NCBI GenBank assembly: GCA_036941025.1 | Contig: JAYMNP010000001.1 | Location: 1,550,001 to 1,614,000 of the forward strand | DNA from: Lachnospiraceae bacterium JLR.KK002 | GTDB taxonomy: Bacteria; Bacillota; Clostridia; Lachnospirales; Lachnospiraceae | DNA: 64,000 bases | Direction: 5' to 3' | Shown: piece after piece, positions 20,796-37,006 of the stretch | Layout of the letters: each line of letters starts with the position of its first letter | Numbering within the stretch: the first letter of the stretch is position 1 | Notes under the pieces: generated by a model | The model's input: the letters and a program-made list of their open reading frames with translations, nothing else | The model's database searches: none | Told to the model about the DNA's origin: nothing | Position numbers and translations under genes: made by a program

Positions 20796-20810
20796 GGATA
20801 TATATAATGA

Positions 20811-20848
20811 AAAGGCGCAAAGCCTTTGGTAACAAGCTCTGCGCCTTT
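20811..20848 (-). terminator. Probable terminator of the surface-protein operon
   Basis: AAAGGCGCA (20811-20819) pairs with TGCGCCTTT (20840-20848), 10 bases after the stop of the last surface-protein gene. The T tract is poor (TTTTCATTATA), so termination may be partial. Confidence 0.6.
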
Positions 20849-20857
20849 CGCATAAAA

Positions 20858-23800
20858 TTATGCTTCTCCTGTCTTCGGACTCTTCCGCTTACCGGAATCA
20901 CTGTCCTCTTTCTCCCCGCTGTCGGTGGTAACGGGATTTTCTTTCTTCTTAATCTCTGCCATATCTCTTTTCTGTCCGGTCTTCTCAGCGTTTTCCTCTG
21001 ATTTGGAACTCTCTTTCCCTTTCTCCGGACGGTCAACTACCACCACATAGTCCGATGCATGGGAGAAGGAAATGCTGATATTTCCGTCTTCTCCGATCTG
21101 CCCCGCATTCCGGAAAATCAGTTTCCCCGCACTGTCATAATAGTACAGGTTTCCCGTTCCTCCGCTGTTCTCACTTCCCATATTCAGGGTCAGATCCGCA
21201 CGGAACCCGAATTCCCCGTTGTGGGTTAAGGTAAGCTGGGTGGTGGGTTTCCCCTCTGCAAGTTCATTAATCAGGCCTGTGGGTACCGCACCCGTATCCG
21301 CCTTTACTTCCAGATCAATGTCCTTCAGCTCTGCTGCCGCCACTTCCGTTCCTCCGATGGTCCAGCTGTAGCTTCCCATGTCAAGGACAATCTGTACTTC
21401 TTTCCCCTGAATGGCTTCCAGCACCTCTTTTGGCACCACTGTGGCCTGCTTCATGTCTATGGTTATGGTTTCCCCTGACCCTGCCTGTTCGATTTCCGCC
21501 ACAATCCGGCTGATTTCCTCTTCCGGCAGCTTCACTCCCAGGGGGCCTTCTTCCGTTCCGTCTTTTAACTTTCCGGCACATGCAAGGAATTCCCGGTCTT
21601 CTGTAATCACCACGGTTTCGCCTTTTTCGCATCCTTCCCACAGCAGGTCCGTGTATTTCTCATTTTCTGTGGGCAGGGTAAACTTCTCACCTTTGTTCAC
21701 AACGATATACTGGCAGCTTTCATCCGGGAACTTCAGAATCACCACGCAGTTGTAATACTGTGCCCGGAACCGGATGCTCTTATATCTTCCCTGATTCACT
21801 TCCATATCGCCTTCCCATTCGGACAGCATCAGGCCTTTCAGGTGGTTCACTTCCTTAAACACACCGGTGGCTTCTCCCTGGACTGCCGCATCGGAAAGGT
21901 TTTCCCCGTTCAGGAACATCAGCCTGTTTCCGGTGGCCAGCTTCCCGTCCTCTCCCCGGTAAGTATATAACACATCCACCGTGGTTTTTCCCCGATAAAC
22001 TGCTGTCACTTCCAGCTCCGTCATGGGGGAGGAGAGTATATCATCTTCCGTTCCCTTTGTCAGAACCCAGCCCTCAAACTCCATTCCTTCCGCTGTTTCC
22101 GGTGGCTCCAGCTCTGCCAGGGCGTCCTTAACGGTCATACCTTTTTCATAAGATTTTACAACCCCTTTCTCTGCTCCCATTCCATCGCTTCCCTGATATC
22201 TGGTGCGCCAGGATACCTGACAGTTATTATACTCCGCTTCTGCTGACATCCAGCCAACGCCCCATATCTGTGAATTTTCATCCTGCCCTTCTCCCAGACG
22301 GAATCCGGAAAACCCTGTTTCACTGGCATCCTCCGGCAGCTTTAACTGCTCCAGCACTTCCCGGCAGGTGGAGCCCGCTTCCACAAAAACAGGTACCATT
22401 GCTGTTTTGATTCCCTGTTCTTTTGTCATATAGGTCAGGGACACATTGGCACAATCCCTGTCATAATTGCCATAAATACTGATGTCCACAGGGTCCGTAC
22501 CGGCAAATATCAGTTCTGTGTTTTCATCCACCTCCGGCCCATAGCCAATCTGGCTGTTTCGTGTCCAGGTTACATTTATGCCTTCCGGAGCCTGGGGCAA
22601 TGATACCCCCAGTTCTTTCAGGGAAGCTCTCCGTCCCACTTTTTCCACAGTCCTGGAAGATATCAGCCTGTTATACCGATAACTTCCATTTTCCTGGCGT
22701 ACAAATCCAAGCACCGTAACTGTAACGTCTTTAAAATCTTCCCGATAGGTGTTGTCTGTTTTTACCCGGTAATACCAGGGACAGTTTATTTCCCAGAATT
22801 TGTCGAAATCCCGCAGAGAGGCTTCGTTTCCTTTGGTATCCGATATGGACAGTTCCGTCAGCATCCATTCACAGGGATAGGTATTCTCTGTAATGGAAGT
22901 GGTTCCAATATATTCTCCGGTATCCTGATTATACTTCAGACTGATATCCGCATTAGAGGAAACATTCGCCACCTGAGGAGAAAAACGTGCCCTGGCAGTT
23001 TGAGCCGGATGGTCTTCCTTCACTTTTACCTTCAGGGTAACAGTATCGCCAGGCAGCACCCACTGGCCCTTTTTATCAATGGTTATGCTTTCGATGACCG
23101 GATCTTCCCTGTCTGGCCGGTATCCTTCCGGGTCCACGGTATAGTACCAGGGGCAGTTCGTTTCCCAGTCTTCCTGAATATCCGAGAGCATTGCATTATG
23201 CCCTTTACGGTCAGACAGCTCCAGTCTCTCCAGTTCCCATTTGCAGGGATATGTCTCATCTGTAATATCAATCTGCCCTGTATATTCCATAGTTTTCCGA
23301 TTTAAGGTCAGACTGTTATGATAATAAATAATACCTGTACCACTGGGACGAAACAGTATCTCCGCCTCATCTCTTGGGTTTTCTTCTTCCACCTTTATCG
23401 TTATGGTAACTTTATCCCCGGCTTTCACCATCTGTCCGTTTTTATCAATGTTTATACTCTTAATTATGGGCCGCTGTGTATCATATGTCTCCTGGACTAC
23501 CGTAAACTTTAAATTTGCATCCGGCTCATTTCTGTTTGGATAAAAGCAGTAAGATATTCCGGATTTTGTCCATACCGTCATCTTCTCCCAGAACCATTCT
23601 GCCGGGTAGGTATCCTCTGTAACGGTATAAGTACCTGTCATGGTTCCACTGTCAGCATCCCAATTCATTTTTATGTAATCACTGTGACTGACAGTATTGG
23701 CCTTCATTTTGATAAACATATCTCCTTCCCCGGTCAGTTCTCCGCCTTCACAGGTCAAACGGGCGCTAAACGTTACCTTATCTCCCGGCCGTAACTTTCC

Positions 23801-24493
23801 GTCATCTCCTGATGATGTTATCTCTATTCGGAAATCGGACCCGGAAACTTTTTCGTTATTTACTTCCGGTTCCGGATACGCTACCTCAAACCGGTAAAGA
23901 AAACAGCCATCCTTCCTGGTTTCCTCTTCCGCATAATTACCGGCTTTATCTTCCACCTGAATCCTGGTGACATGAACACTGTTTCCCCCACGTCTGGTAC
24001 AGGGATATTCCCCGGTATACAGATTTCCTTCTCCGCTTTTGTGTAACTTTACTTCTATTTCACGGTAATCATAACCATATCCATTCAGGTAAACCGTAAC
24101 GGATTCGATACCACTGTCCGCATCGTAAGCCCACAGTTTAAAGTGCACCGTCTCATCTGTCGTAACTGTCTGCCCGTTTTCCACCAGTTCAAATTTCTCA
24201 ATGACCGGCTGATTAATGTCATAACCGGCTGACAGAGGCATAACAGACTCTGTTTCTTCCATCTGAATATTTTCCGAAACTTCTTTTTCTGCCTCTTCCC
24301 GCTGCTTTTCAGGCTGCTGTATTTCTTCCACAGATTCCATCATCCTGTTTTCTTCTGATGATTCTTTTTTTTCCACACGTTCCATTTTTCTTTCTGCTTC
24401 GGCTGCTAATGCAGCTTCCATGGGAAACACTGCCGTCAGAGCCATGGAAACTGCCAGAAAAATTCCCAGCCATTTTTTCCCTGTTTTTTTCAT
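20858..24493 (-). CDS. Large secreted Ig-repeat protein ending in SPKTG (paralogue 1)
   Basis: A 1211-residue secreted protein. It has a signal peptide (residues 1-31, ending near ALAAEA), a Glu-rich spacer to about 75, then four beta-rich modules of roughly 120 residues. The modules share a TYPxxW motif and a closing LxxxDxxG strand; two begin with PVIESITIDK-like text. A middle part (590-900) resembles bacterial beta-grasp/Ig adhesin modules, and a last folded part closes with YYYDSAGKLIF and a DYVVVVD strand. The Lys/Ser/Glu-rich tail ends KSPKTGEA and stop. SPKTG is a class B sortase type motif, but the hydrophobic segment and basic tail that normally follow are absent. It is the last gene of the operon. 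Function unknown; adhesion or matrix building is a guess. Confidence 0.8.
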   Translation of the reverse strand: MKKTGKKWLGIFLAVSMALTAVFPMEAALAAEAERKMERVEKKESSEENRMMESVEEIQQPEKQREEAEKEVSENIQMEETESVMPLSAGYDINQPVIEKFELVENGQTVTTDETVHFKLWAYDADSGIESVTVYLNGYGYDYREIEVKLHKSGEGNLYTGEYPCTRRGGNSVHVTRIQVEDKAGNYAEEETRKDGCFLYRFEVAYPEPEVNNEKVSGSDFRIEITSSGDDGKLRPGDKVTFSARLTCEGGELTGEGDMFIKMKANTVSHSDYIKMNWDADSGTMTGTYTVTEDTYPAEWFWEKMTVWTKSGISYCFYPNRNEPDANLKFTVVQETYDTQRPIIKSINIDKNGQMVKAGDKVTITIKVEEENPRDEAEILFRPSGTGIIYYHNSLTLNRKTMEYTGQIDITDETYPCKWELERLELSDRKGHNAMLSDIQEDWETNCPWYYTVDPEGYRPDREDPVIESITIDKKGQWVLPGDTVTLKVKVKEDHPAQTARARFSPQVANVSSNADISLKYNQDTGEYIGTTSITENTYPCEWMLTELSISDTKGNEASLRDFDKFWEINCPWYYRVKTDNTYREDFKDVTVTVLGFVRQENGSYRYNRLISSRTVEKVGRRASLKELGVSLPQAPEGINVTWTRNSQIGYGPEVDENTELIFAGTDPVDISIYGNYDRDCANVSLTYMTKEQGIKTAMVPVFVEAGSTCREVLEQLKLPEDASETGFSGFRLGEGQDENSQIWGVGWMSAEAEYNNCQVSWRTRYQGSDGMGAEKGVVKSYEKGMTVKDALAELEPPETAEGMEFEGWVLTKGTEDDILSSPMTELEVTAVYRGKTTVDVLYTYRGEDGKLATGNRLMFLNGENLSDAAVQGEATGVFKEVNHLKGLMLSEWEGDMEVNQGRYKSIRFRAQYYNCVVILKFPDESCQYIVVNKGEKFTLPTENEKYTDLLWEGCEKGETVVITEDREFLACAGKLKDGTEEGPLGVKLPEEEISRIVAEIEQAGSGETITIDMKQATVVPKEVLEAIQGKEVQIVLDMGSYSWTIGGTEVAAAELKDIDLEVKADTGAVPTGLINELAEGKPTTQLTLTHNGEFGFRADLTLNMGSENSGGTGNLYYYDSAGKLIFRNAGQIGEDGNISISFSHASDYVVVVDRPEKGKESSKSEENAEKTGQKRDMAEIKKKENPVTTDSGEKEDSDSGKRKSPKTGEA
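21031..22440 (-). repeat. Homologous 3' block shared by the three surface-protein genes, copy 1
   Basis: About 1.4 kb nearly identical in DNA to 24707-26130 and 29140-30560. Long stretches match without change, including third codon positions, which points to recent duplication or gene conversion. Confidence 0.85.
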
Positions 24494-24533
24494 ATCTTAT
24501 ACCTCCCTGATAAAAATGCATAATGAAACATTT

Positions 24534-27500
24534 TTATTCTCCGGTCTTTGGACTCTTTCGCTTATTGGAATTACTGTTGTCTTCATCTGTTCCGCTGTCT
24601 GTCGTAACCGGATTCTCTTTCTTCTTAATCTCTGCGTTCTCTCCCTCTTTCCAGGTTTTCTCTCCCTTTTCCTCTGAACGGGCACTGTCTTTCCCGTTCT
24701 CCGGCTGGTCAACTACCACCACATAGTCCGATGCATGGGAGAAGGAAAGGCTGATATTTCCGTCTTCTCCGATCTGCCCCGCATTCCGGAAAATCAGTTT
24801 TCCCGCGCTGTCATAATAGTACAGGTTGCCGGTCCCTCCGCTGTTCTCACTTCCCATATTCAGAGTCAGATCCGCACGGAACCCGAATTCCCCGTTGTGG
24901 GTTAAGGTAAGCTGGGTGGCGGGTTTCCCCTCTGCAAGTTCATTAATCAGGCCTGTGGGCACCGCACCCGTATCCGCCTTTACTTCCAGATCAATGTCCT
25001 TCAGCTCTGCTGCCGCCACTTCCGTCCCTCCGATGGTCCAGCTGTAGCTTCCCATGTCAAGGACAATCTGTACTTCTTTCCCCTGAATGGCTTCCAGCAC
25101 CTCTTTTGGCACCACTGTGGCCTGCTTCATGTCTATGGTTATGGTTTCCCCTGACCCTGACTGTTCGATTTCCGCCACAATCCGGCTGATTTCCTCTTCC
25201 GGCAGCTTCACTCCCAGGGGGCCTTCTTCCGTTCCGTCTTTTAACTTTCCGGCACATGCAAGGAACTCCCGGTCTTCTGTAATCACCACGGTTTCGCCTT
25301 TTTCGCATCCTTCCCACAGCAGGTCCGTGTATTTCTCATTCTCCGTGGGCAGGGTATACCTGGCCCCCCTGTTTACCACAATATACTGGCAGCTTTCATC
25401 CGGGAACTTCAGGATTACCACACAGTTGTAATACTTTGCCCGGAACCGGATGCTCTTATATCTTCCCTGATTCACTTCCATATCGCCTTCCCATTCGGAC
25501 AGCATCAGGCCTTTCAGGTGGTTCACTTCCTTAAACACACTGGTGGCTTCTCCCTGGACTGCCGCATCGGAAAGGTTTTCCCCGTTCAGGAACATCAGCC
25601 TGTTTCCGGTGGCCAGCTTCCCGTCCTCTCCCCGGTAAGTATATAACACATCCACCGTGGTTTTTCCCCGGTAAACTGCTGCCACTTCCAGTTCTGTCAT
25701 TTCTCCGGACAGTACTTCCTCTTCGCTGCCTGTGAGCAGCATCCATCCTTCAAACTCCATTCCTTCCACTGTTTCCGGTGGCTCCAGCTCTGCCAGGGCA
25801 TCTTTTACGGTCATGCCTTTTTCATAGGATTTTACAACCCCTTTCTCTGCTCCCATTCCGTTGCTTCCCTGATATCTGGTATGCCAGGATACCTGACAGC
25901 CATTGTATTCCGCTTCTGCCGAAAAACGGACAGTTCCCCATATCTGCCAGTTTTCCTCATATCCCTCTCCCAGACGGAATCCGGAAAATCCTGTTTCGCT
26001 GGCGTCCTCCGGCAGCTTTAACTGCTCCAGCACTTCCCGGCAGGTGGTTTCCCGCTCCACAAAGACAGGGACTATTGCTGTTTTGATTCCCTGGTCTTTT
26101 GTCATATAGGTCAGAGATACATTGGCACAGTCTTTGTCATACGAAGCGTAAAAACTAACATCCATATGCCCATTGTCCCCAAACAGCAGTTCTGTATCCT
26201 CCGTTACCGCCCCGGAATTACGTCTCCATGTGGCAGTTACGCCCTCAGGCGCCTGCGGAAAGGACACACCCAGTTCCTTCAGTGTGGTTCTCCGTCCCAC
26301 TTTCTCCACGGTGGGGCCGGGAATCGCGACGTAATCCTGATAACTGCCGTCTTCCTGAAGCGCCAGACCATAAAACGTAAATGTTACATCCCGGTAATCT
26401 TCCCGGTAGGTATCTCTGGTTTTCACCCGGTAGTAAAATGGATACGTTGCATACCAGTCCTCCATGTACTGCGATACGTTGGCTCTGTATCCGTTCTGGT
26501 CCTCTATACGCAGATCCGTCATCATCCATTCACAGGGATAGGTATCTTCTGTAATGGGAATCGTCCCTGTATATTCCATGGTGTCGGGATGAAACTGCAA
26601 ATCCACACATTGATATCCGGAAACATTCGATACCTGAGGATAGAAATATGCATATCCATACCAGGAAGGATGTTCCTCTTCCACTTTCACGGTCAGAGTC
26701 AGGGTATCTCCCGGCTGAACCCACTGGTTATTCTTATCAAGGGTGATGCTTTTAATCACCGGCGCCTGATTATCCACATGGTATCCCTCCGGGTCTACCG
26801 TATAATACCAGGGATATACTGTCTCAAAGTCCTCCTGAAAATCTTTGAGACAGGCTGTATGTCCATTCGTATCCCGGACTTCCAGATTTTTGATGTTCCA
26901 TCTGCCGGGATATGTCGCCTTTGTAACAGAAATTTCCCCCTGATAGGCTCCCAGTTCTTCTTTCCAGTACAGACTGGTATAGGATGATTTCGTATAATCC
27001 TCTGCTGATTTACAATATACACGCGCCCAGCTCTGCGGGTTTTCTTCTTTTACCTTCACAGTAACAGTAACTTTATCCCCGGCTGTTACCATCTCTCCGT
27101 TTTTATCAAGGGTGATACTTTCAATAACCGGAGCTTCCGTATCAAAGTTCTCCTGAACAACTGTAAATTTCAAACTTTCCTCCGAACGAAAAACATAGCT
27201 TCTTCCGGACTGAGTATAAACATAGATATATTCCCAGAGCCATTCGGAAGGATACGTGGTATGTTCCACCGTATACGTGCCTGTCATGATCTGAGTTTCC
27301 TCATTATAAGTCATGTTTATCTCTTTTGCATGATAAACTTTGGCCCCAACAGTGCCAAATCTCATCTTTGCATTCCTCAGCTTACTGCCCTCACAGGTCA
27401 TACGAGCAGAACAGGTTACCGTATCCCCCGGTTTCAATGTTCCATCTTCACCGGAAGCACTGGTCTTCATCTGAAAATCAGTGACGGAAACCTTTTCTTC

Positions 27501-28109
27501 TGTCGGTTTTACCTTTATGGTAACATGATAACGGCAATTGTAATTATCATCATATATATCTCCGTCCACATAGTTTTTCGCCCGGTCTTCTACCCGGATT
27601 TCCGTAACATGGTGTTCTCCGCTCCAGAAAGAACTGCATGGATACTCTGCAGTATACAGTTTTTCTTCTCCGCTTTTCTGTAATTCTATTCTCTGGCCGC
27701 TCATCACAACATACACAGAACTGATATCGCTGTCTGCGTCATAGGCCCACAGTTTAAAATGAAGGGTATCGTCATCTGTCAGTGTCTGACCGTTTTCTTC
27801 AAATTCAAAGCCTTCGATTACCGGCTGGTTAATATCATATCCGTCAGACAGAGGCATGACAGGCTCTGTTTCTTCTGTAAGGACTGCTTCGGGCATTTCT
27901 TTCTCTGCCTGCTCCTGCAGTTCTCCCGGAAGCCTTACATCCTCCATGGTTTCCATCATCACTTTTTCTTCGGATGATTTCCCTGTTTCCACACGTTCCA
28001 CTTCTTTGTCAGTTCCGGCCGCCATGGCGCCCTGCATTGGAAATACTGCCGCCACGGTCATGGACGCCGCCAGTATAACCCCCAGTAATTTTCTCCCTGT
28101 TTTCCTCAT
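24534..28109 (-). CDS. Large secreted Ig-repeat protein ending in SPKTG (paralogue 2)
   Basis: A 1191-residue paralogue with the same layout: signal peptide (1-31), acidic spacer, four TYPxxW beta modules, middle beta-grasp-like region, conserved late domain, and charged tail ending KSPKTGE then stop. No membrane anchor follows; the next gene starts 40 bases on. The second to fourth modules differ from paralogue 1 but are close to paralogue 3 from about residue 370. A ribosome binding site (AAAGGAGG) precedes the ATG. It is third in the leftward operon, 92 bases after the sortase gene. A surface or matrix role is inferred from the signal peptide, repeats and sortase neighbour. Confidence 0.8.
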   Translation of the reverse strand: MRKTGRKLLGVILAASMTVAAVFPMQGAMAAGTDKEVERVETGKSSEEKVMMETMEDVRLPGELQEQAEKEMPEAVLTEETEPVMPLSDGYDINQPVIEGFEFEENGQTLTDDDTLHFKLWAYDADSDISSVYVVMSGQRIELQKSGEEKLYTAEYPCSSFWSGEHHVTEIRVEDRAKNYVDGDIYDDNYNCRYHVTIKVKPTEEKVSVTDFQMKTSASGEDGTLKPGDTVTCSARMTCEGSKLRNAKMRFGTVGAKVYHAKEINMTYNEETQIMTGTYTVEHTTYPSEWLWEYIYVYTQSGRSYVFRSEESLKFTVVQENFDTEAPVIESITLDKNGEMVTAGDKVTVTVKVKEENPQSWARVYCKSAEDYTKSSYTSLYWKEELGAYQGEISVTKATYPGRWNIKNLEVRDTNGHTACLKDFQEDFETVYPWYYTVDPEGYHVDNQAPVIKSITLDKNNQWVQPGDTLTLTVKVEEEHPSWYGYAYFYPQVSNVSGYQCVDLQFHPDTMEYTGTIPITEDTYPCEWMMTDLRIEDQNGYRANVSQYMEDWYATYPFYYRVKTRDTYREDYRDVTFTFYGLALQEDGSYQDYVAIPGPTVEKVGRRTTLKELGVSFPQAPEGVTATWRRNSGAVTEDTELLFGDNGHMDVSFYASYDKDCANVSLTYMTKDQGIKTAIVPVFVERETTCREVLEQLKLPEDASETGFSGFRLGEGYEENWQIWGTVRFSAEAEYNGCQVSWHTRYQGSNGMGAEKGVVKSYEKGMTVKDALAELEPPETVEGMEFEGWMLLTGSEEEVLSGEMTELEVAAVYRGKTTVDVLYTYRGEDGKLATGNRLMFLNGENLSDAAVQGEATSVFKEVNHLKGLMLSEWEGDMEVNQGRYKSIRFRAKYYNCVVILKFPDESCQYIVVNRGARYTLPTENEKYTDLLWEGCEKGETVVITEDREFLACAGKLKDGTEEGPLGVKLPEEEISRIVAEIEQSGSGETITIDMKQATVVPKEVLEAIQGKEVQIVLDMGSYSWTIGGTEVAAAELKDIDLEVKADTGAVPTGLINELAEGKPATQLTLTHNGEFGFRADLTLNMGSENSGGTGNLYYYDSAGKLIFRNAGQIGEDGNISLSFSHASDYVVVVDQPENGKDSARSEEKGEKTWKEGENAEIKKKENPVTTDSGTDEDNSNSNKRKSPKTGE
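24707..26130 (-). repeat. Homologous 3' block, copy 2
   Basis: Matches 21031-22440 and 29140-30560. It differs from both in a segment at about 25675-26060, where copy 3 follows copy 1 instead. Confidence 0.85.
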
Positions 28110-28201
28110 TCCTTATACCTCCTTTAACTAAGTATACATAACTCAAAAATCCTGGAACAACATAAAGTATCTGTGTCCGGTGCAGTATCCTCCCCCTGCA
28201 C

Positions 28202-28963
28202 CTATGATTCTTCCGCCAGCACTGCCTGAATCAGAAGCCGGTTTTCATCCCGTCCGCTGTAGCAGGTTGACAGAGTAAGAATTTTATCGCTGCTTACCAC
28301 CTCCGTTTCATGTCTGAAATTCACTTTGCATGATTCCACATCCTCCAGATATCTCCGGATTTCGGAATCCTCGGTAAAATCATACTCATAGGGAATCAGC
28401 ACGTCCGAAAAATCTGCCGCCGCAAAGATTTCATAAATCAAAGTATCATCCGGCGTATAAATAATGACCTGTCGGTTCTCCTCAAAAAATTTACTGTCCT
28501 CAAACTCATGAAGGCTGCTGAACATCCCTCCGTTTTTCATATTATGTCCATACAGAACCGTAACCGAATCCTTAAAATCTCTGCTGTTTACAGGCTGAGT
28601 ATAGATAGCGCCCGGAAATCCTTCCGACAAATCCGCCTTATGGTCCAGATAATAATTATCGTAAATATCTTCCGTGCCGCTTTTCTGCAGCACCGGATAG
28701 TCTATACCGGTTCCCGGAACGGTAATCCAGGCATAAATATCCGGGTTCTGGGCCTGCAGCAACTCAAAATCAATCTTTATTTCTCCGGATTCATCCCTGT
28801 ACTTTACTTCATCCGCCACGGAATCCTGTGACAAATCCAGCGTGGCAGCAGGGGATATGGTATCCCCTGCATATTCTCCGTAATAACCTGCCAGAAACAC
28901 TGACACGCCAAAAGCAATGACCAGAAGTGCCGACAGGATTTTCTTCTTCTCTGATTTTATCAT
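28202..28963 (-). CDS. Class B sortase
   Basis: A 253-residue membrane-bound transpeptidase. An N-terminal membrane segment (residues 9-27) places the catalytic domain outside. The active site shows the His in LYGHNMKNGGMF (about 140), Cys in TLSTCYSG (about 234) and Arg in ENRLLIQAVL (about 243). The TLSTC form and the overall layout fit class B. C. difficile SrtB is known to recognise (S/P)PxTG motifs, and the three neighbours end in SPKTG. The ATG comes 3 bases after the stop of paralogue 3, so the two are coupled. The natural reading is a dedicated sortase for these proteins. Confidence 0.93.
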   Translation of the reverse strand: MIKSEKKKILSALLVIAFGVSVFLAGYYGEYAGDTISPAATLDLSQDSVADEVKYRDESGEIKIDFELLQAQNPDIYAWITVPGTGIDYPVLQKSGTEDIYDNYYLDHKADLSEGFPGAIYTQPVNSRDFKDSVTVLYGHNMKNGGMFSSLHEFEDSKFFEENRQVIIYTPDDTLIYEIFAAADFSDVLIPYEYDFTEDSEIRRYLEDVESCKVNFRHETEVVSSDKILTLSTCYSGRDENRLLIQAVLAEES

Positions 28964-28966
28964 GTT

Positions 28967-31900
28967 CTATTCTCCTGTTTTCGGGCTTTTTCGTTTACTG
29001 GTATTACTGTTGTCTTCATCTGTTCCGCTGTCTGTCGTAACCGGATTCTCTTTCTTCTTAATCTCTGCGTTCTCTCTCTCTTTCCAGGTTTTCTCTCCCT
29101 TTTCCTCTGAACGGGCACTGTCTTTCCCGTTCTCCGGACGGTCAACTACCACCACATAGTCCGATGCATGGGAGAAGGAAAGGCTGATATTTCCGTCTTC
29201 TCCGATCTGCCCCGCATTCCGGAAAATCAGTTTTCCCGCGCTGTCATAATAGTACAGGTTGCCGGTCCCTCCGCTGTTCTCACTTCCCATATTCAGAGTC
29301 AGATCCGCACGGAACCCGAATTCCCCGTTGTGGGTTAAGGTAAGCTGGGTGGCGGGTTTCCCCTCTGCAAGTTCATTAATCAGGCCTGTGGGCACCGCAC
29401 CCGTATCCGCCTTTACTTCCAGATCAATGTCCTTCAGCTCTGCTGCCGCCACTTCCGTCCCTCCGATGGTCCAGCTGTAGCTTCCCATGTCAAGGACAAT
29501 CTGTACTTCTTTCCCCTGAATGGCTTCCAGCACCTCTTTTGGCACCACTGTGGCCTGCTTCATGTCTATGGTTATGGTTTCCCCTGACCCTGACTGTTCG
29601 ATTTCCGCCACAATCCGGCTGATTTCCTCTTCCGGCAGCTTCACTCCCAGGGGGCCTTCTTCCGTTCCGTCTTTTAACTTTCCGGCACATGCAAGGAACT
29701 CCCGGTCTTCTGTAATCACCACGGTTTCGCCTTTTTCGCATCCTTCCCACAGCAGGTCCGTGTATTTCTCATTCTCCGTGGGCAGGGTATACCTGGCCCC
29801 CCTGTTTACCACAATATACTGGCAGCTTTCATCCGGGAACTTCAGGATTACCACACAGTTGTAATACTTTGCCCGGAACCGGATGCTCTTATATCTTCCC
29901 TGATTCACTTCCATATCGCCTTCCCATTCGGACAGCATCAGGCCTTTCAGGTGGTTCACTTCCTTAAACACACTGGTGGCTTCTCCCTGGACTGCCGCGT
30001 CGGAAAGGTTTTCCCCGTTCAGGAACATCAGCCTGTTTCCGGTGGCCAGCTTCCCGTCCTCTCCCCGGTAAGTATATAACACATCCACCGTGGTTTTTCC
30101 CCGGTAAACTGCTGTCACTTCCAGCTCCGTCATGGGGGAGGAGAGTATATCATCTTCCGTTCCCTTTGTCAGAACCCAGCCCTCAAACTCCATTCCTTCC
30201 GCTGTTTCCGGTGGCTCCAGCTCTGCCAGGGCGTCCTTAACGGTCATGCCTTTTTCATAAGATTTTACAACCCCTTTCTCTGCTCCCATTCCATCGCTGC
30301 CCTGATATCTGGTACGCCAGGATACCTGACAGTTATTATACTCCGCTTCTGCTGACATCCAGCCAACGCCCCATATCTGTGAATTTTCATCCTGTCCTTC
30401 TCCCAGACGGAATCCGGAAAACCCTGTTTCACTGGCATCCTCCGGCAGCTTTAACTGCTCCAGCACTTCCCGGCAGGTGGTTTCCCGCTCCACAAAGACA
30501 GGTACTATTGCTGTTTTGATTCCCTGGTCTTTTGTCATATAGGTCAGAGATACATTGGCACAGTCTTTGTCATACGAAGCGTAAAAACTAACATTCATAT
30601 GCCCATTATCCCCAAACAGCAGTTCTGTATCCTCCGTTACCGCCCCGGAATTACGTCTCCATGTGGCAGTTACGCCCTCAGGCGCCTGCGGAAAGGACAC
30701 ACCCAGTTCCTTCAGTGTGGTTCTCCGTCCCACTTTCTCCACGGTGGGGCCGGGAATCGCGACGTAATCCTGATAACTGCCGTCTTCCTGAAGCGCCAGA
30801 CCATAAAACGTAAATGTTACATCCCGGTAATCTTCCCGGTAGGTATCTCTGGTTTTCACCCGGTAGTAAAATGGATACGTTGCATACCAGTCCTCTATGT
30901 ACTGTGATACATTGGTCCTGTATCCGTTCTGGTCCTCTATACGCAGATCCGTCATCATCCATTCACAGGGATAGGTATCTTCTGTAATGGGAATCGTCCC
31001 CGTATATTCCATGGTGTCGGGATGAAACTGCAAATCCACATATTGATATCCTGAAACATTCGATACCTGAGGATAGAAATATGCATATCCATTCCGGGAA
31101 GGATGTTCCTCCTCCACTTTCACGGTCAGAGTCAGGGTATCTCCCGGCTGAACCCACTGGTTATTCTTATCAAGGGTGATGCTTTTAATCACCGGCGCCT
31201 TATTATCCTCATAATACCCATCCGGGTCTACGGTATAATACCAGGGATATACTGTCTCAAAATCTTCCTGAAAATCTTTCAGACGAGTTGTATGTCCATG
31301 TATATCCCTGACTTCCAGATTTGTGATATTCCATCTGCCCGGGTAGGTTTCCTTTGTAATAGGAATTATCCCCTGATAGGCTCCCAGTTCTTCTTTCCAG
31401 TACAGACTGGTATAGCCTTTCTTTCTGTAATCATCTGCTGATGTATAATACACACGCCCCAAACTCCGCGGGTTTTCTTCTTTTACTTTTACGGTAATGG
31501 TAACTTTATCCCCGGCTGTTACCATCTCTCCGTTTTTGTCAAGGGTGATACTCTCAATCACCGGGTCTTCCAGATCAAAATTTTCCTGAACTACTGTAAA
31601 CTTCAAACTTTTATCCGGACGAACTTTACTGCCTTTCCCGGACTGCGTGGTAACCGTGATATATTCCCAGCTCCATTCGGAAGGATACGTGGTATCTTTT
31701 ATAGTATATATACCTGTCACAGTCTGACTTTCTTCGTTGTAAGTCATGCTCATTTCTTCTGTATGGTATACTTTGGCCCCAATGGTACCAATTTTCATTC
31801 GTCCATCTCTCACCTTTCCGTTTTCACAGGTCACGCGGGCAGAACAGGTTACTGTATCGCCTGGCACTAATGCCCCGTCTTCACCGGAAGCACTGGTCTG

Positions 31901-32575
31901 AATCTGAAAATCAGTGACAGAAACTTTTTCTGCAGGTTTTGTATTCTGTACTATAACATAGTAAAGACAATTGTAATTATCGTCATGCACATCTGCCTCT
32001 GTATAATTTTTCGCCCTGTCTTCCACCCGGATTTCAGTGATACTAACTGTTCCATTTTTGAAAGAACTGCAGGGATACTCTGCAGTATACAGTTTTTCTT
32101 CCTCACTTTTCTGTAAATCTATTCTGCGGCCACCTGCTTCAACATATACAGAACTGATATCACTGTCCGCATCGTAAGCCCACAGCTTAAAATGAAGGAT
32201 ATCTTTTTCTGTCAGTGTCCGGCCGTTTTCTTCCAGCTCAAACCTTTCGATTACCGGCTGGTTAATATCGTATCCGTCAGACAGAGGCATGACAGGCTCT
32301 GTCTCTTCCATAGACAGAGGCACGACTGACTCTGTCTCTTCCATCTGAATTTCTTCGAAAACTCCGCTTCCTGCCTCTTCCTGCTGCTTTGCAGGCTGCT
32401 GTACCTTCTCCGGGGTTTCCTCCATCCATTTTTCCTCTGATGATTCCTTTTTTTCCACATGTTCCGCTTCTCTGCCAGTTTCCGCTGCCATGACGCTCTG
32501 TATCGGAAATACCGCTGCCACAGTCATGGATGCCGCCAGCAAGACTCCCAGTAATTTTCTTCCTGACTTTTTCAT
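28967..32575 (-). CDS. Large secreted Ig-repeat protein ending in SPKTG (paralogue 3)
   Basis: A 1202-residue paralogue and first gene of the operon. It has a signal peptide (1-31), an acidic spacer with a short internal duplication (PLSMEETE-type repeat near residues 76-100), then the same four TYPxxW modules, middle region, late domain and tail ending KSPKTGE then stop. It is mostly like paralogue 2 but carries a segment (bases about 30114-30470) that follows paralogue 1, so it is a mosaic. AAGGAGG precedes the ATG. TATAAT-like boxes lie 110-125 bases upstream without a clear -35. Function unknown; surface-exposed and sortase-linked by context. Confidence 0.8.
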   Translation of the reverse strand: MKKSGRKLLGVLLAASMTVAAVFPIQSVMAAETGREAEHVEKKESSEEKWMEETPEKVQQPAKQQEEAGSGVFEEIQMEETESVVPLSMEETEPVMPLSDGYDINQPVIERFELEENGRTLTEKDILHFKLWAYDADSDISSVYVEAGGRRIDLQKSEEEKLYTAEYPCSSFKNGTVSITEIRVEDRAKNYTEADVHDDNYNCLYYVIVQNTKPAEKVSVTDFQIQTSASGEDGALVPGDTVTCSARVTCENGKVRDGRMKIGTIGAKVYHTEEMSMTYNEESQTVTGIYTIKDTTYPSEWSWEYITVTTQSGKGSKVRPDKSLKFTVVQENFDLEDPVIESITLDKNGEMVTAGDKVTITVKVKEENPRSLGRVYYTSADDYRKKGYTSLYWKEELGAYQGIIPITKETYPGRWNITNLEVRDIHGHTTRLKDFQEDFETVYPWYYTVDPDGYYEDNKAPVIKSITLDKNNQWVQPGDTLTLTVKVEEEHPSRNGYAYFYPQVSNVSGYQYVDLQFHPDTMEYTGTIPITEDTYPCEWMMTDLRIEDQNGYRTNVSQYIEDWYATYPFYYRVKTRDTYREDYRDVTFTFYGLALQEDGSYQDYVAIPGPTVEKVGRRTTLKELGVSFPQAPEGVTATWRRNSGAVTEDTELLFGDNGHMNVSFYASYDKDCANVSLTYMTKDQGIKTAIVPVFVERETTCREVLEQLKLPEDASETGFSGFRLGEGQDENSQIWGVGWMSAEAEYNNCQVSWRTRYQGSDGMGAEKGVVKSYEKGMTVKDALAELEPPETAEGMEFEGWVLTKGTEDDILSSPMTELEVTAVYRGKTTVDVLYTYRGEDGKLATGNRLMFLNGENLSDAAVQGEATSVFKEVNHLKGLMLSEWEGDMEVNQGRYKSIRFRAKYYNCVVILKFPDESCQYIVVNRGARYTLPTENEKYTDLLWEGCEKGETVVITEDREFLACAGKLKDGTEEGPLGVKLPEEEISRIVAEIEQSGSGETITIDMKQATVVPKEVLEAIQGKEVQIVLDMGSYSWTIGGTEVAAAELKDIDLEVKADTGAVPTGLINELAEGKPATQLTLTHNGEFGFRADLTLNMGSENSGGTGNLYYYDSAGKLIFRNAGQIGEDGNISLSFSHASDYVVVVDRPENGKDSARSEEKGEKTWKERENAEIKKKENPVTTDSGTDEDNSNTSKRKSPKTGE
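29140..30560 (-). repeat. Homologous 3' block, copy 3 (mosaic)
   Basis: Matches copy 2 except for about 30114-30470, where diagnostic bases (for example 30120-30181) equal copy 1 at 22020-22080. Confidence 0.85.
32278..32346 (-). repeat. Tandem duplication in the N-terminal spacer of paralogue 3
   Basis: Two diverged 33-base copies (GACAGAGGCA... at about 32280 and 32313) encode the repeated PLS-MEETE text. Paralogues 1 and 2 have one copy. Confidence 0.7.
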
Positions 32576-33085: not shown

Positions 33086-34534
33086 TTATTCCCGATGCAT
33101 GGAGAAACTGTCCATATCGTAATTTCCAAGATTCTCATGGATTCCCCGGCTGTCCGCCTGAGAAATCAGCGTATCGCGGTTCTTTCTGGATGATATCTGG
33201 TCATTGAATGCACTCGGACCTCCCACGCAGCCACCGTCGCAGATCATGCCTTCCACAAAATCTTCCGGCAGTTTCGCAGCTCTTAAGAGAAGCAGCGCTT
33301 TCTTACATTCTGCCGCTCCGTTGGCTTTGCAGACTTTCGCGTCGATTTCATGGCCGGACTCTTTCAGGCTCTGCAGCACTGCTCCGGTCACTCCGCCGGA
33401 ATTTGCAAACCGTTTGCCATAAACAGACGAAATCTGGTCGTCGTTTTCGCATGGCTCCAGCTTCACGTCCCTGGCCTTCATAATGGCACGGATTTCACTG
33501 TAAGTCAGCACATAATCCGCATTTCCCGGAATCTTCTGGTCCACAACCTCTGACTTCTTGGCAAGGCAGGGCCCGACAAATACGGTTACAGCATCCGGCT
33601 CCTTAGCCTTAATCAGGCGGGATACGGCGCACATGGGGGAAACCGTAGCAGATACGCAGTCTGCCAGCTGAGGATAGTGGAGACGTACCATATTTACAAA
33701 TGCCGGACAGCAGGAGGTTACTTTCTTCTTCCCTTCCTGATATGCTTCCGCCCATTCTTCCGCTTCATAAGCGGCTGTCATATCTCCGCCGAGACCTACA
33801 TCGTAGAAATCTTCAAAGCCCAGTTCTTTCATGGCCTTCTTCCAGCTTGCTGTGGTGATATCCGCGCCAAACTGGCCTTCTGTTGCAGGAGCTGCCATGG
33901 CATAGACCTTTTTGCCGGATTTCAGCGCTTCCACCACATCCACAATAAAGGTTTTGGAGCCAATAGCCCCAAAGGGACAGCTATGGATACATTTTCCGCA
34001 TCGAATGCACTTTTCTTTGTCGATAATGGAAATTCCGTGCTCGTCGTATGTAATGGCGTCTACGGGACAACTGTACTTGCAGGGACGTTTCAGATGGGCA
34101 ATGGCGTTGTAGGGACAGGCCTGCGCACATTTTCCGCACTCCTTGCATTTGGACGCATCAATATGGGAACGGTCCCTGCCCATTTCAATTGCGCCGAATT
34201 TGCAGGCATTGATACATGCCTTTCCAATACAGTTCTGGCAGTTCTCCGTAACGGTGTAACTGGAAATGGGACAATCCTCACAGGCGGAGCTGATCACCTG
34301 GATTACGTTTCCGTCATCCACAGCTCCCGGCGCTTTGCCTTCTGCCAGGCGGACTCTCTGCCGGATGATCTCTCTCTCTTTGTAAATACAGCAGCGGAAC
34401 TTCGGTGTGGGTCCGGGAATCAGTTCCAGAGCAATGTGATCCCGTTTGGCGTCCAGTTCCCCGGCAAATGCCAGTTTTGCAACTTCATAGAGTACATCGT
34501 GTTTGATTCTAATCACATTTTCATCAGCGAACAT
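33086..34534 (-). CDS. Monomeric [FeFe] hydrogenase (group B type)
   Basis: A 482-residue iron-sulfur enzyme. The N-terminal 90 residues have a family-specific part with Cys pairs (ACEDCPIS). Ferredoxin-like clusters follow: CQNCIGKAC, CKECGKCAQACP and CIRCGKCIHSCP (about 98-190). The H-cluster domain comes next, with L1 TSCCPAFV (about 274), L2 VGPCLAKKSE (about 322) and L3 CDGGCVGGP (about 432). The L1 form TSCCPAF and SPMCAVSR are typical of group B enzymes. It makes or uses H2 with ferredoxin in the cytoplasm. The maturases HydEFG are not in the window. It sits beside feoAB, which supplies iron; co-regulation is not shown. Confidence 0.93.
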   Translation of the reverse strand: MFADENVIRIKHDVLYEVAKLAFAGELDAKRDHIALELIPGPTPKFRCCIYKEREIIRQRVRLAEGKAPGAVDDGNVIQVISSACEDCPISSYTVTENCQNCIGKACINACKFGAIEMGRDRSHIDASKCKECGKCAQACPYNAIAHLKRPCKYSCPVDAITYDEHGISIIDKEKCIRCGKCIHSCPFGAIGSKTFIVDVVEALKSGKKVYAMAAPATEGQFGADITTASWKKAMKELGFEDFYDVGLGGDMTAAYEAEEWAEAYQEGKKKVTSCCPAFVNMVRLHYPQLADCVSATVSPMCAVSRLIKAKEPDAVTVFVGPCLAKKSEVVDQKIPGNADYVLTYSEIRAIMKARDVKLEPCENDDQISSVYGKRFANSGGVTGAVLQSLKESGHEIDAKVCKANGAAECKKALLLLRAAKLPEDFVEGMICDGGCVGGPSAFNDQISSRKNRDTLISQADSRGIHENLGNYDMDSFSMHRE

Positions 34535-34567
34535 GGTCTTTACCTCTCTCTTTTTTTGTTTGACAAC

Positions 34568-34597
34568 ATTTTAACACTGTATGGTTCTTTCCTGCAA
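34568..34597 (-). promoter_or_regulatory. Probable hydrogenase promoter
   Basis: TTGCAG (34592-34597) and TAAAAT (34568-34573) on the minus strand, 18-base spacer, about 35 bases before the start codon. Confidence 0.55.
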
Positions 34598-34634
34598 GAG
34601 AATTTTCTTTTGTATTTCAGAAAATACGATATTT

Positions 34635-34692
34635 CGTTACTTTTTGGGCCGGATGCCGTTACCGGAACACCCGTAGGGTGTGAACAGTAACG
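34635..34692. repeat. Palindromic intergenic element downstream of feoB
   Basis: CGTTAC (34635-34640) and GTAACG (34687-34692) bound nested hairpins, including ACACCC-GTA-GGGTGT. GAACAGTAACG at 34682 resembles the GTAACAGTTC end of the repeat at 4742. It may also act as the feoB terminator, though no good T tract is present. Confidence 0.4.
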
Positions 34693-34707
34693 ATATTTCT
34701 CCATTTT

Positions 34708-36690
34708 TCACAAAAGGGAACCCGCCTGGTACACAAGTACTGCCATAATCCAGGCAACCCCAAGCTGGAACAGAAGCATTTTCAGCGTAAATTTCAGAGA
34801 ACCTGTTTCCTTTTTGATGGTCCCGATAGTGGCCGCGCATGGCACATAGAGCAGACAGAAAATCATCATGCAGTATGCGTTCAGAGGGCCGAATCCCGCT
34901 TCCGCAAGCTGGCCTGTCAGGGCAGCCATGCCCGCTGCGGAATTTACATTGCTGACGCCAAACAGCACGCAGAAACTGCTGACCACCACCTCTTTTGCGG
35001 AAATCCCGGAAATCAGAGCCACGCCAATCTGCCACATGCCCAGGCCTGCCGGAGCCAGTACGGGCTCCAGCCAGTGTCCCAGCACCGCTCCGAAGCTCTC
35101 CGATACTTCCTCTGTCATACCGTGAATTCCAAAGTTCAGCAAAAACCAGATGATAATGGAAGCAATAAAAATCGTGGTTCCCGCTTTCGTCAGGTAATCC
35201 TTGATTTTCTCCCATACATAAACTGCAATGGTTCTGGCATTGGGCGTCTTGTACTCCGGCAGCTCAATCAAAAGGGTGTGATGTTCCGTGTGAGTTTCCA
35301 CCCGATGAATCACCAGAGCAATTACTATGGCAACAGCCATTCCCAGAAAATACATGGATATTGCAGCCAGGGAAGCATATCTGCCAAAAAACATACCCGC
35401 AAACAGCACATAGATGGGAAGCCTTGCGGAGCAGGACATAAACGGTGTAATCAATATGGTCCGTCTCCGGTCAGATTCTTTTTCCAGCGCTCTGGTGGCC
35501 ATAATGGCAGGAACCGTACAGCCAAATCCCAGAACCATAGGCAGAAATGCTTTTCCGGAAAGGCCCAGAGAGCCCATCAGCCCATCCATCACATAGGCAA
35601 CTCTTGCCATATATCCGCTGTCCTCCAGCAGCGCAAGGGCCAGAAACAAAATAAAAATGTTGGGCAGAAATGTGAGAATCCCTCCCACTCCCGCAATGAT
35701 TCCGTCCACAACCAGCGAAATCATCCAGGGGGCCACATGCATACGCTCCAGCAGGTGCAGCATACCGTTGGATGCGGATTCCAGAAGCACCTCGAATCCG
35801 CCTTTCAGAGTATCCCCCACAAAAAAAGTCAGGAAAAATACCACCGCCATCACGCCGAAGAAAATGGGCATTCCCCATATGGGATGGGTCAGTATCCCGT
35901 CCACCTTATCTGTAAAAGCCGCCTTTTCTGATTTATAAAACAGGGTGTCCTCCATCACTTCTTCTATGTAATCGTACTTCTGATTGATAATATCCTTTTC
36001 ATAGCTTCTGTCCAGTACTTCCGGCAGTTCCACCGGATAAAGAGAAGTAATTTCTTCATCCTGTTCCAGCAGCTTGATGGCATACCAGCGGGCATTTTCC
36101 GGAATCTGATATGACTCTTCCAGAGCCTGCTCCAGCAAATGGATTTTCTCCTCTATATCCTTCCGGTAAGTGACAATTTCCGGCCGGTGCATTTCCTCAT
36201 AATGGTGTACCGCCGCATGGAGCAGTACATCCAGCCCGCTTCTTTTTCTGGCGGAAACAGGTACCACAGGAATACCGCCCAGCATTTCCGGCAGGCGGTG
36301 CAAGTCAATTTCCATGCCCCGTTCTTCCACAATATCCATCATATTCAATGCCAGAATCACCGGTTTGCCCAGCTCCAGAAGCTGCATGGTCAGATACAGA
36401 TTCCGCTCCAGGGCCGATGCATCCACAACATTGACAATCACGTCCACTTCATGTTTCATAATGCACCGTCTGGAAACTTTTTCTTCAATAGAATAAGACG
36501 TAAGACTGTAAATTCCCGGCAAATCAATAAGTTTCAGCTTCTGACCTTTGTAAACGGTTTCTCCTTCCACTTTTTCCACTGTCACGCCGGGCCAGTTGGC
36601 CACTTTCAGATTTGCCCCGGTATATGCATTAAACAGCGTGGTTTTCCCGCAGTTGGGATTTCCCACAAATCCAACTCTAATGACTTCCAT
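34708..36690 (-). CDS. feoB: Ferrous iron transporter FeoB
   Basis: A 660-residue membrane protein that takes up Fe2+. The N-terminal G domain has G1 GNPNCGKTT at residues 11-19, G3 DLPG near 57 and G4 NMMD near 116, followed by a helical insertion domain. The membrane part has about eight segments with the Gate motifs (GFGCTVPAIMATRAL and the second VPCAATIGTIKKE). It is shorter than the 773-residue E. coli form and has no C-terminal FeoC-like domain, as in many Clostridia. It overlaps feoA by 14 bases, and both follow a Fur-boxed promoter. Confidence 0.96.
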   Translation of the reverse strand: MEVIRVGFVGNPNCGKTTLFNAYTGANLKVANWPGVTVEKVEGETVYKGQKLKLIDLPGIYSLTSYSIEEKVSRRCIMKHEVDVIVNVVDASALERNLYLTMQLLELGKPVILALNMMDIVEERGMEIDLHRLPEMLGGIPVVPVSARKRSGLDVLLHAAVHHYEEMHRPEIVTYRKDIEEKIHLLEQALEESYQIPENARWYAIKLLEQDEEITSLYPVELPEVLDRSYEKDIINQKYDYIEEVMEDTLFYKSEKAAFTDKVDGILTHPIWGMPIFFGVMAVVFFLTFFVGDTLKGGFEVLLESASNGMLHLLERMHVAPWMISLVVDGIIAGVGGILTFLPNIFILFLALALLEDSGYMARVAYVMDGLMGSLGLSGKAFLPMVLGFGCTVPAIMATRALEKESDRRRTILITPFMSCSARLPIYVLFAGMFFGRYASLAAISMYFLGMAVAIVIALVIHRVETHTEHHTLLIELPEYKTPNARTIAVYVWEKIKDYLTKAGTTIFIASIIIWFLLNFGIHGMTEEVSESFGAVLGHWLEPVLAPAGLGMWQIGVALISGISAKEVVVSSFCVLFGVSNVNSAAGMAALTGQLAEAGFGPLNAYCMMIFCLLYVPCAATIGTIKKETGSLKFTLKMLLFQLGVAWIMAVLVYQAGSLL

Positions 36691-36925
36691 CTGCTTCCTC
36701 CCCTTCCGCAGGATTCACCAGAATTCCTCCTGCAATATCTTTTCCGATTGCCCAGCGGGTACCCCGCACTTTGATAATGACGGTTCCGTTCCGCTTCCGG
36801 TTCATCAGACGCAGCTTCGTTCCGCTGTTAATGCCCAGTGCTTCCAGCCGCCGCATAATGGGGCCTTCTATGGAAATATCCGTTACAATATAGGTACCGT
36901 CTATGATTCCGTCTACAATTGTCAT
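36677..36925 (-). CDS. feoA: Ferrous iron transport protein FeoA
   Basis: An 82-residue SH3-like protein (RRLEALGINSGTKLRLMNR and the following IIKVRGTRWAIGKDIA) that works with FeoB at the inner face of the membrane. I place the start at the ATG 36925, after GCGAGGAAC. The frame is open to 36979, but that first ATG lies within the -10 box and cannot be in the mRNA. The C-terminal tail (NPAEGEEADGSH) is acidic and overlaps the feoB start. Confidence 0.92.
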   Translation of the reverse strand: MTIVDGIIDGTYIVTDISIEGPIMRRLEALGINSGTKLRLMNRKRNGTVIIKVRGTRWAIGKDIAGGILVNPAEGEEADGSH

Positions 36926-36977
36926 ATACTGTTCCTCGCTTCTTTTTTCTTTCAGATATTCTCTTATGCTCAAAGCC

Positions 36978-37006
36978 ATTATACTCTAAATGATAATGAT
37001 TATCAA
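36978..37006 (-). promoter_or_regulatory. feoAB promoter
   Basis: TTGATA (37001-37006) and TATAAT (36978-36983) on the minus strand, 17-base spacer. Confidence 0.85.
36991..37005. promoter_or_regulatory. Fur box
   Basis: TGATAATGATTATCA matches the 7-1-7 Fur consensus TGATAATNATTATCA at every position and lies over the -35 box and spacer of the feoAB promoter. Iron-loaded Fur should therefore repress feoAB. Confidence 0.93.

Follow-up and report, generated by a model that had tools for sequence, protein, structure and literature searches.

A class B sortase operon in Lachnospiraceae whose large predicted substrates stop at the SPKTG motif

How might a sortase attach to the cell wall a protein that ends at the sorting motif itself? 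The classical sorting signal combines a motif with a hydrophobic domain and a charged tail. We analysed a 64,000-nucleotide stretch of DNA (the window) from Lachnospiraceae bacterium JLR.KK002 (contig JAYMNP010000001.1, positions 1,550,001 to 1,614,000), where an operon encodes a class B sortase (SrtB) and three large paralogous proteins that stop one or two residues past SPKTG. Judged from sequence, this is a class B sortase whose substrates fall outside the canonical definition of a sorting signal. We consider it likely, though well short of certain, that the operon serves surface display by sortase B, with a cell wall sorting signal reduced to its recognition motif, and that it attaches adhesin-like proteins to peptidoglycan. 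The tail-less ending, which relatives in many gut bacteria keep strictly, is probably a working variant of wall attachment. This reading builds on what the sequences show: how the genes are arranged, a tail-less end that is conserved, an SrtB gene that accompanies it, catalytic residues that are all in place, and the same pattern in other lineages.

Operon, substrates and sortase

The operon runs on the minus strand in the order substrate 1, srtB, substrate 2, substrate 3 and a terminator-like hairpin. Substrate gene 1 (28967..32575) encodes a 1202-aa protein, predicted to be secreted, that ends KSPKTGE, the codons of this motif (28970..28990) being followed immediately by TAG. The sortase gene (28202..28963) encodes 253 aa with the signature TLSTC. 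Substrate genes 2 (24534..28109, 1191 aa) and 3 (20858..24493, 1211 aa) end in KSPKTGE and KSPKTGEA, with the KSPKTGE codons at 24537..24557 and 20864..20884, respectively; read slightly further upstream, the three ends are ...KRKSPKTGE, ...KRKSPKTGE and ...KRKSPKTGEA. The first-pass annotation had described three paralogues with these ends and a class B sortase after the first, and the open reading frames (ORFs) and the TLSTC signature bear it out. The ATG of the sortase lies 3 nt past the stop of substrate 1, and 40 nt separate genes 2 and 3; the arrangement of terminator, 40-bp gap and sortase ATG reported behind the stops agrees with these coordinates. The hairpin (20810..20849, minus strand, 16 pairs) is a consensus match only, and terminator-like sites as a class show no excess there (12 against a shuffled-control mean of 13.3).

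Of a canonical LPXTG-type signal, the substrates carry the pentapeptide, SPKTG, near the C-terminus, and one or two residues stand in the window where the hydrophobic domain and charged tail would follow. The first-pass annotation had stated that no hydrophobic segment follows in any frame. Taken literally, this does not hold: the sortase ATG shares the frame of substrate 1, so that the N-terminal membrane segment of the sortase lies in frame 3 nt past the stop, and the stop of substrate 2 is followed, in a different frame, by the signal peptide of the next gene. Its substance stands, in that both stretches are parts of the next genes and, on the gene layout, neither is a substrate anchor, because 5 of 13 closely spaced substrate–sortase pairs are out of frame (8 are in frame) and no sortase follows copies 2 and 3. 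Several copies in other genomes (e.g. L050_13, L055_13, L060_7 and L065_8) have no strongly hydrophobic stretch past the stop in any frame.

The substrates start with a signal-peptide-like segment, judged from sequence by eye; in copy 1 it covers about 31 residues (32483..32575, minus strand) and is conserved in the family (consensus of 51 rows). Across the family, mean conservation is 0.68 in the first 32 filled columns, 0.30 in the next 28 and 0.59 over all columns. The remainder of the proteins gives weak Ig-like matches (Big_7, Ig_3 and DUF7035), mostly under curated cut-offs, and a profile of 56 substrate-family proteins, searched by sequence only, matched no PDB chain at E 0.1. The 5′ parts of the three genes are divergent (57–81% identity in the first four 300-nt blocks), whereas their 3′ parts are near-identical (over the last six 300-nt blocks, 16 of 18 values lie at 86–100%), which suggests gene conversion. 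In the matching record of Eubacterium sp. 14-2 (L052), runs of unread bases fall within ORFs at the same region.

The window sortase passes the TIGR03064 cut-off narrowly (156.3 bits against 153.75). His140, Cys234 (in TLxTC) and Arg242 are invariant in all 29 rows of our alignment A3, where residue numbers are one lower, the first row having no Met1. An AlphaFold2 model (pLDDT 83) has class B sortases as its PDB fold matches 1–19, including C. difficile SrtB (4ux7, 5gyj) and, as match 4, Spy0129 (3psq). By sequence and model, the protein is thus assigned as a class B sortase with its catalytic residues intact. The source genome is closely related to Eubacterium sp. 14-2, the SrtB of which is 98% identical to the window SrtB over 251 columns.

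Conservation of the tail-less end and pairing with SrtB

Near-identical 3′ parts make the window copies themselves weak evidence that their shared ending is anything but truncation, so this point rests on a family-wide survey. A homologue search found 166 proteins, and the counts of ends cover the 120 that were listed. In 104 of these the protein ends no more than five residues past SP[KR]TG; two extend 22 and 42 residues further past the motif, eight distant relatives (P0113–P0120) have membrane tails of the ordinary kind, and six have no motif and are probably fragments. Among 52 representatives sharing less than 70% identity, the motif positions are kept almost without exception (K in 51, S in 52, P in 52, K in 51 with one R, T in 52, G in 52, E in 50), while in the linker from −30 to −6 the commonest residue never exceeds 27 of 52. 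We conclude from these alignments that the anchor-less ending is not random truncation, as the first-pass annotation had argued from the three window copies.

A tree built from the C-terminal domain groups all 28 anchor-less rows in a single clade, apart from 37 anchored relatives; 15 further rows are unlabelled, and several branches are long. An invariant lysine of this domain is also present in anchored relatives. One orthologous ORF beside SrtB (L065:9884-13870) also ends KSPKTGE.

A scan of named genomes gave 74 loci, of which 23 (L046–L068) are orthologue loci. Cultured gut bacteria that carry the genes include Petralouisia muris NM01_1-7b, Schaedlerella arabinosiphila DSM 106076 and Eubacterium sp. 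14-2. At 19 of the 23, SrtB lies on the same strand within 305 bp of the substrate, and three of the remaining four are second contigs whose partner locus carries SrtB (L057/L065, L061/L067 and L064/L063). Apart from the substrate and SrtB, no gene cluster exceeds 13 of the 23 loci; next comes a cluster of ABC ATP-binding proteins, in 13. Among the other 51 loci, many of which share the C-terminal domain only, a sortase match was found at L101 alone. Of 28 genomes of the genus (G000–G027), the 9 with a strong substrate match (E <= 1e-250) are also the 9 whose cognate SrtB scores above 330 bits (Fisher p 1.4e-7, with thresholds chosen after the scores had been seen and kinship uncorrected). Several of these nine are the same records as loci among L046–L068, and three further genomes of the genus (G006, G007 and G026) carry SrtBs at 41–45% identity. 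The absence of the module from a same-species genome, G835, which gave no SrtB match, was dropped from consideration, since the contig there ends within the first substrate gene.

Attachment to a partner in trans, another suggestion of the first-pass annotation, finds no support in these data: no third cluster exceeds 13 of the 23 loci, and the genome shows no other SPKTG ORF at its 23 matches to the motif. A genome-wide search for further SPKTG proteins, which it had proposed, gave 23 DNA matches to S-type PKTG (53 in the reversed control) and no SPKTG ORF beyond the three substrates, with an exact PKTG core required; two TPKTG ORFs in the same genome carry ordinary tails. A further suggestion, a sortase acting on tail-less substrates, gains support from the gene pairing and from the published AbpA system discussed below.

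Directly upstream of the operon (33086-36979) lie genes for an iron-only hydrogenase-like protein, FeoB and FeoA. What seem to be these hydrogenase-like and FeoB genes recur as clusters at 5 and 6, respectively, of the 23 orthologue loci. Between about 32812 and 32959, also upstream, is an intergenic repeat of roughly 50–150 bp; G835 holds dozens of partial copies (at least 50 matches to the query, one of them the locus itself).

Tail-less ends in other lineages

Anchor-less [SA]PKTG ends adjoin related SrtBs in other Lachnospiraceae. Searched in 397 Lachnospiraceae genomes, the pattern SPKTGE-stop gave 17 matches, spread over 11 of them, and the reversed control gave 8. Ten of the 17 close an open frame at its C-terminal end (five in G363, two in G000 and one each in G416, G454 and G061), the frame in G061 continuing a few residues past the motif; the remaining seven resemble chance matches. 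Among 341 genomes of the class, the pattern was found in G000 only, the reversed control giving 10 matches.

We then surveyed the neighbours of 155 SrtB ORFs, drawn from 80 TIGR03064-ranked loci, 60 similarity-ranked loci, the 23 orthologue loci and the window. Labels refer to neighbours within 2.5 kb. The loci were not sampled at random, and one gene appears twice, as L297 and L055. Neighbours were anchor-less for 30, anchored for 35 and neither for 90. The TIGR03064-ranked group (75 SrtB ORFs) divides into 0 anchor-less, 9 anchored and 66 neither; its 80 loci hold 10 anchored proteins and no convincing anchor-less neighbour, an automatic NPATG match having been judged unconvincing. The orthologue loci with the window (20 SrtB ORFs) give 18, 0 and 2. 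The similarity-ranked group (60 SrtB ORFs) gives 12, 26 and 22, and therefore anchored neighbours outnumber anchor-less ones among the sortases closest to the window SrtB. SrtBs with anchored SPKTG neighbours (such as L303, L312 and L322) share the sortase lineage and motif of the window, but their substrates have the tail.

Eleven of the 30 SrtBs with an anchor-less neighbour fall outside the window family. Their substrates are proteins of 184–293 aa in G363, G448, G055, G206, G454 and G114 and, in G061 (L336:5197-12129), a 2310-aa protein beside SrtB, predicted to be secreted, that ends KSPKTGEWRFPWE. The small anchor-less proteins are related to each other and to anchored neighbours of related SrtBs, so one small-substrate family holds both designs. 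BLAST gave no match between the 2310-aa protein and the window family, and neither of these matched the small-substrate family. In Schaedlerella arabinosiphila, an SrtB (178.6 bits) stands beside a 250-aa protein ending ...TSPKTGEF.

Changes between the two designs were counted on a tree of 88 SrtBs, of which 33 have anchor-less and 29 anchored neighbours (three labels were set by hand). The label takes 6 changes, at least three of them forced by well-supported branches. Branch support is good both for the clade of the window SrtB (21 rows) and for a second one of 8 rows. A single clade for all 33 anchor-less SrtBs is rejected at p-AU 0.035, a modest value that presumes the group to have been named beforehand. 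Two candidate marks of anchor-less partners failed. A longer SrtB loop between YPVLQ and YYL was dropped for exceptions both ways (L308 short; L306, L332, L340, L350 and L352 long). The score against NF040525, the profile of AbpA-type sortases, does not separate the groups either, as the ranges overlap (89–102 bits for seven SrtBs with anchor-less substrates, 94–98 for three with anchored ones).

Two further observations concern these loci. At L305, L326 and similar loci, an ORF of about 270–350 aa, which we take to resemble LytR-CpsA-Psr proteins, adjoins SrtB and a small SPKTG protein. Capsule display in M. gnavus requires srtB4, a gene located close to a capsule cluster that includes LCP enzymes (excerpt of PMC13121745). 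Sortase-B-like domains also occur inside open frames of 1644–1670 codons, unusual for a sortase, in five Lachnospiraceae genomes (G040:C19, G055:C9, G062:C1, G094:C11 and G021:C16).

Published sortases and competing explanations

An anchor-less SrtB substrate is already published, so the design is not wholly new, although the first-pass annotation made no mention of it. AbpA of oral streptococci ends LPKTSAVK, with neither hydrophobic domain nor charged tail, and is anchored to the wall in vivo by the neighbouring SrtB; it is cut between T and S, is found partly in the supernatant and forms ladders that depend on SrtB, both in vitro and in the wall fraction (excerpt of PMC4974636). That paper (Liang et al. 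2016) reported the abpA-srtB pair from oral streptococci and from no other bacterial species. The AbpA proteins are conserved in their signal sequence and at their end, with a variable middle between the two (excerpt of PMC5399409). In both systems, a dedicated srtB stands beside the gene of an adhesin or adhesin-like protein whose signal sequence is conserved, and the motif lies at the very C-terminus with no membrane tail; srtB adjacency was seen in the window and at 19 of 23 orthologue loci. The differences lie in the motif (LPKT(S)AVK, pattern LP(K/N)T(S/A/H)-A(V/A)K, versus KSPKTGE), in the substrates (adhesins of 195–228 aa, excerpt of PMC5399409, versus proteins of about 1100–1670 aa with weak Ig-like matches), in the host (streptococci versus Lachnospiraceae) and in the sortase family, the window SrtB scoring 80.8 bits against the NF040525 cut-off of 200. 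By motif and profile score, the window system is placed outside the AbpA-SrtB family, and the Lachnospiraceae version appears new in motif, substrates and sortase family. Open-licence PMC papers yielded no native tail-less sortase substrate besides AbpA and no occurrence of the string SPKTGE.

Because AbpA is anchored and S. aureus SrtA incorporates added LPETG peptides that have no anchor (excerpts of PMC3929722 and PMC4723074), we think that the window operon works like AbpA-SrtB, with a cut at SPKT|GE. We infer export, the cleavage site, the acceptor, wall attachment and partial release. The three large Ig-like repeat proteins would be exported via Sec by their conserved signal peptide, and KSPKT|GE would be bound by the membrane-held SrtB of the same operon. 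Cleavage between Thr and Gly would cost the substrate just Gly-Glu, and the Thr carboxyl would be joined to a cell wall amine, most likely that of meso-diaminopimelic acid (meso-DAP) in peptidoglycan or lipid II. Part of the substrate would probably be shed into the medium, because nothing holds it in the membrane. C. difficile SrtB, likewise a class B sortase with (S/P)PXTG substrates including SPKTG and among the fold matches (4ux7, 5gyj), cleaves SPKTG peptides and is able to use meso-DAP as their acceptor, although hydrolysis products also form (excerpt of PMC4371152). In M. gnavus, SrtB3 (with IbpA/B) is required for the wall location of SPXTG proteins (excerpt of PMC13121745).

Several observations weigh against wall attachment of tail-less proteins. 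The C. difficile substrate CD3392 differs from the window proteins in having a hydrophobic domain and charged tail, which are required for membrane association and sorting; without its whole sorting signal it goes to the supernatant, and two other C. difficile proteins, whose hydrophobic domains are weak, fail to be anchored (PMC5569036). The SPKTG sortase of C. difficile would therefore seem to want a tail. For S. aureus, the anchor-less peptides required high concentrations (excerpt of PMC4723074). Among the orthologues, the Schaedlerella locus L050 has no adjacent SrtB, and the L065 ORF as called starts without a signal-peptide-like segment, which may reflect a misplaced start, a frame error or a genuine loss.

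As the first-pass annotation had also suggested, the sortase could instead link proteins to proteins: it would join the anchor-less proteins to each other or to another protein, besides or in place of the wall, and very long subunits would form pilus-like ladders. The SrtB-dependent ladders of AbpA (excerpt of PMC4974636) and the service of several long tandem subunits by one sortase fit this, as does the class B fold shared with Spy0129 of S. pyogenes, titled as a class B sortase involved in pilus biogenesis. But Spy0129 serves a pilus, while the window system is without established pilin features, and its operon has no anchored base subunit. The invariant lysine is also present in anchored relatives, no systematic search for acceptor lysines having been made, and the other anchor-less substrates are just 184–293 aa; on balance we regard such linkage as unlikely. 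We find it less likely still that the products are simply soluble, with SrtB trimming the last two residues by hydrolysis, or being unrelated to them, and the motif serving otherwise. Release of CD3392 stripped of its sorting signal (PMC5569036) and hydrolysis by C. difficile SrtB in vitro (excerpt of PMC4371152) agree with it, but all recognition positions are kept near-perfectly, including the Glu after Gly, the substrate pairs with SrtB, and anchored neighbours with the same motif stand beside the same SrtB lineage.

That an anchor exists and was missed, through a frameshift, an assembly error or stop read-through into the membrane segment of the sortase, is highly improbable. The in-frame sortase ATG 3 nt past the first stop and the 8 of 13 close pairs in frame would allow it, but the out-of-frame pairs and the copies with no strongly hydrophobic stretch past the stop rule out read-through as a general explanation, and 104 of the 120 listed homologues share the ending. 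We give equally little credence to vestigial ends, in which anchors were lost and the motif persists by recent common descent or gene conversion. The near-identical 3′ parts of the window copies and the single clade of the large family are what such a history would leave; against it, KSPKTGE stayed while the linkers diverged, and the tail-less pattern recurs in other families beside SrtB.

Wall attachment by a minimal signal, which we favour over these alternatives, has a broader version that we put forward tentatively: tail-free signals may be a general, repeatedly evolved option of the SPKTG class B sortases of gut Lachnospiraceae, with soluble substrate recaptured, put on neighbouring cells or chained. 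Since the substrate would be free in solution, the sortase could act after release, and one operon would supply both soluble and wall-bound pools.

If the minimal signal works as proposed, class B sorting could do without the anchor in more than one lineage, and capture of a tail-less protein by a sortase would become directly testable, with the anchored and tail-less members of one substrate family offering a natural comparison. Because the classical definition includes a hydrophobic domain and a charged tail, surface-protein prediction that requires a tail likely misses such proteins, some of them longer than 1200 residues and some in cultured gut bacteria.

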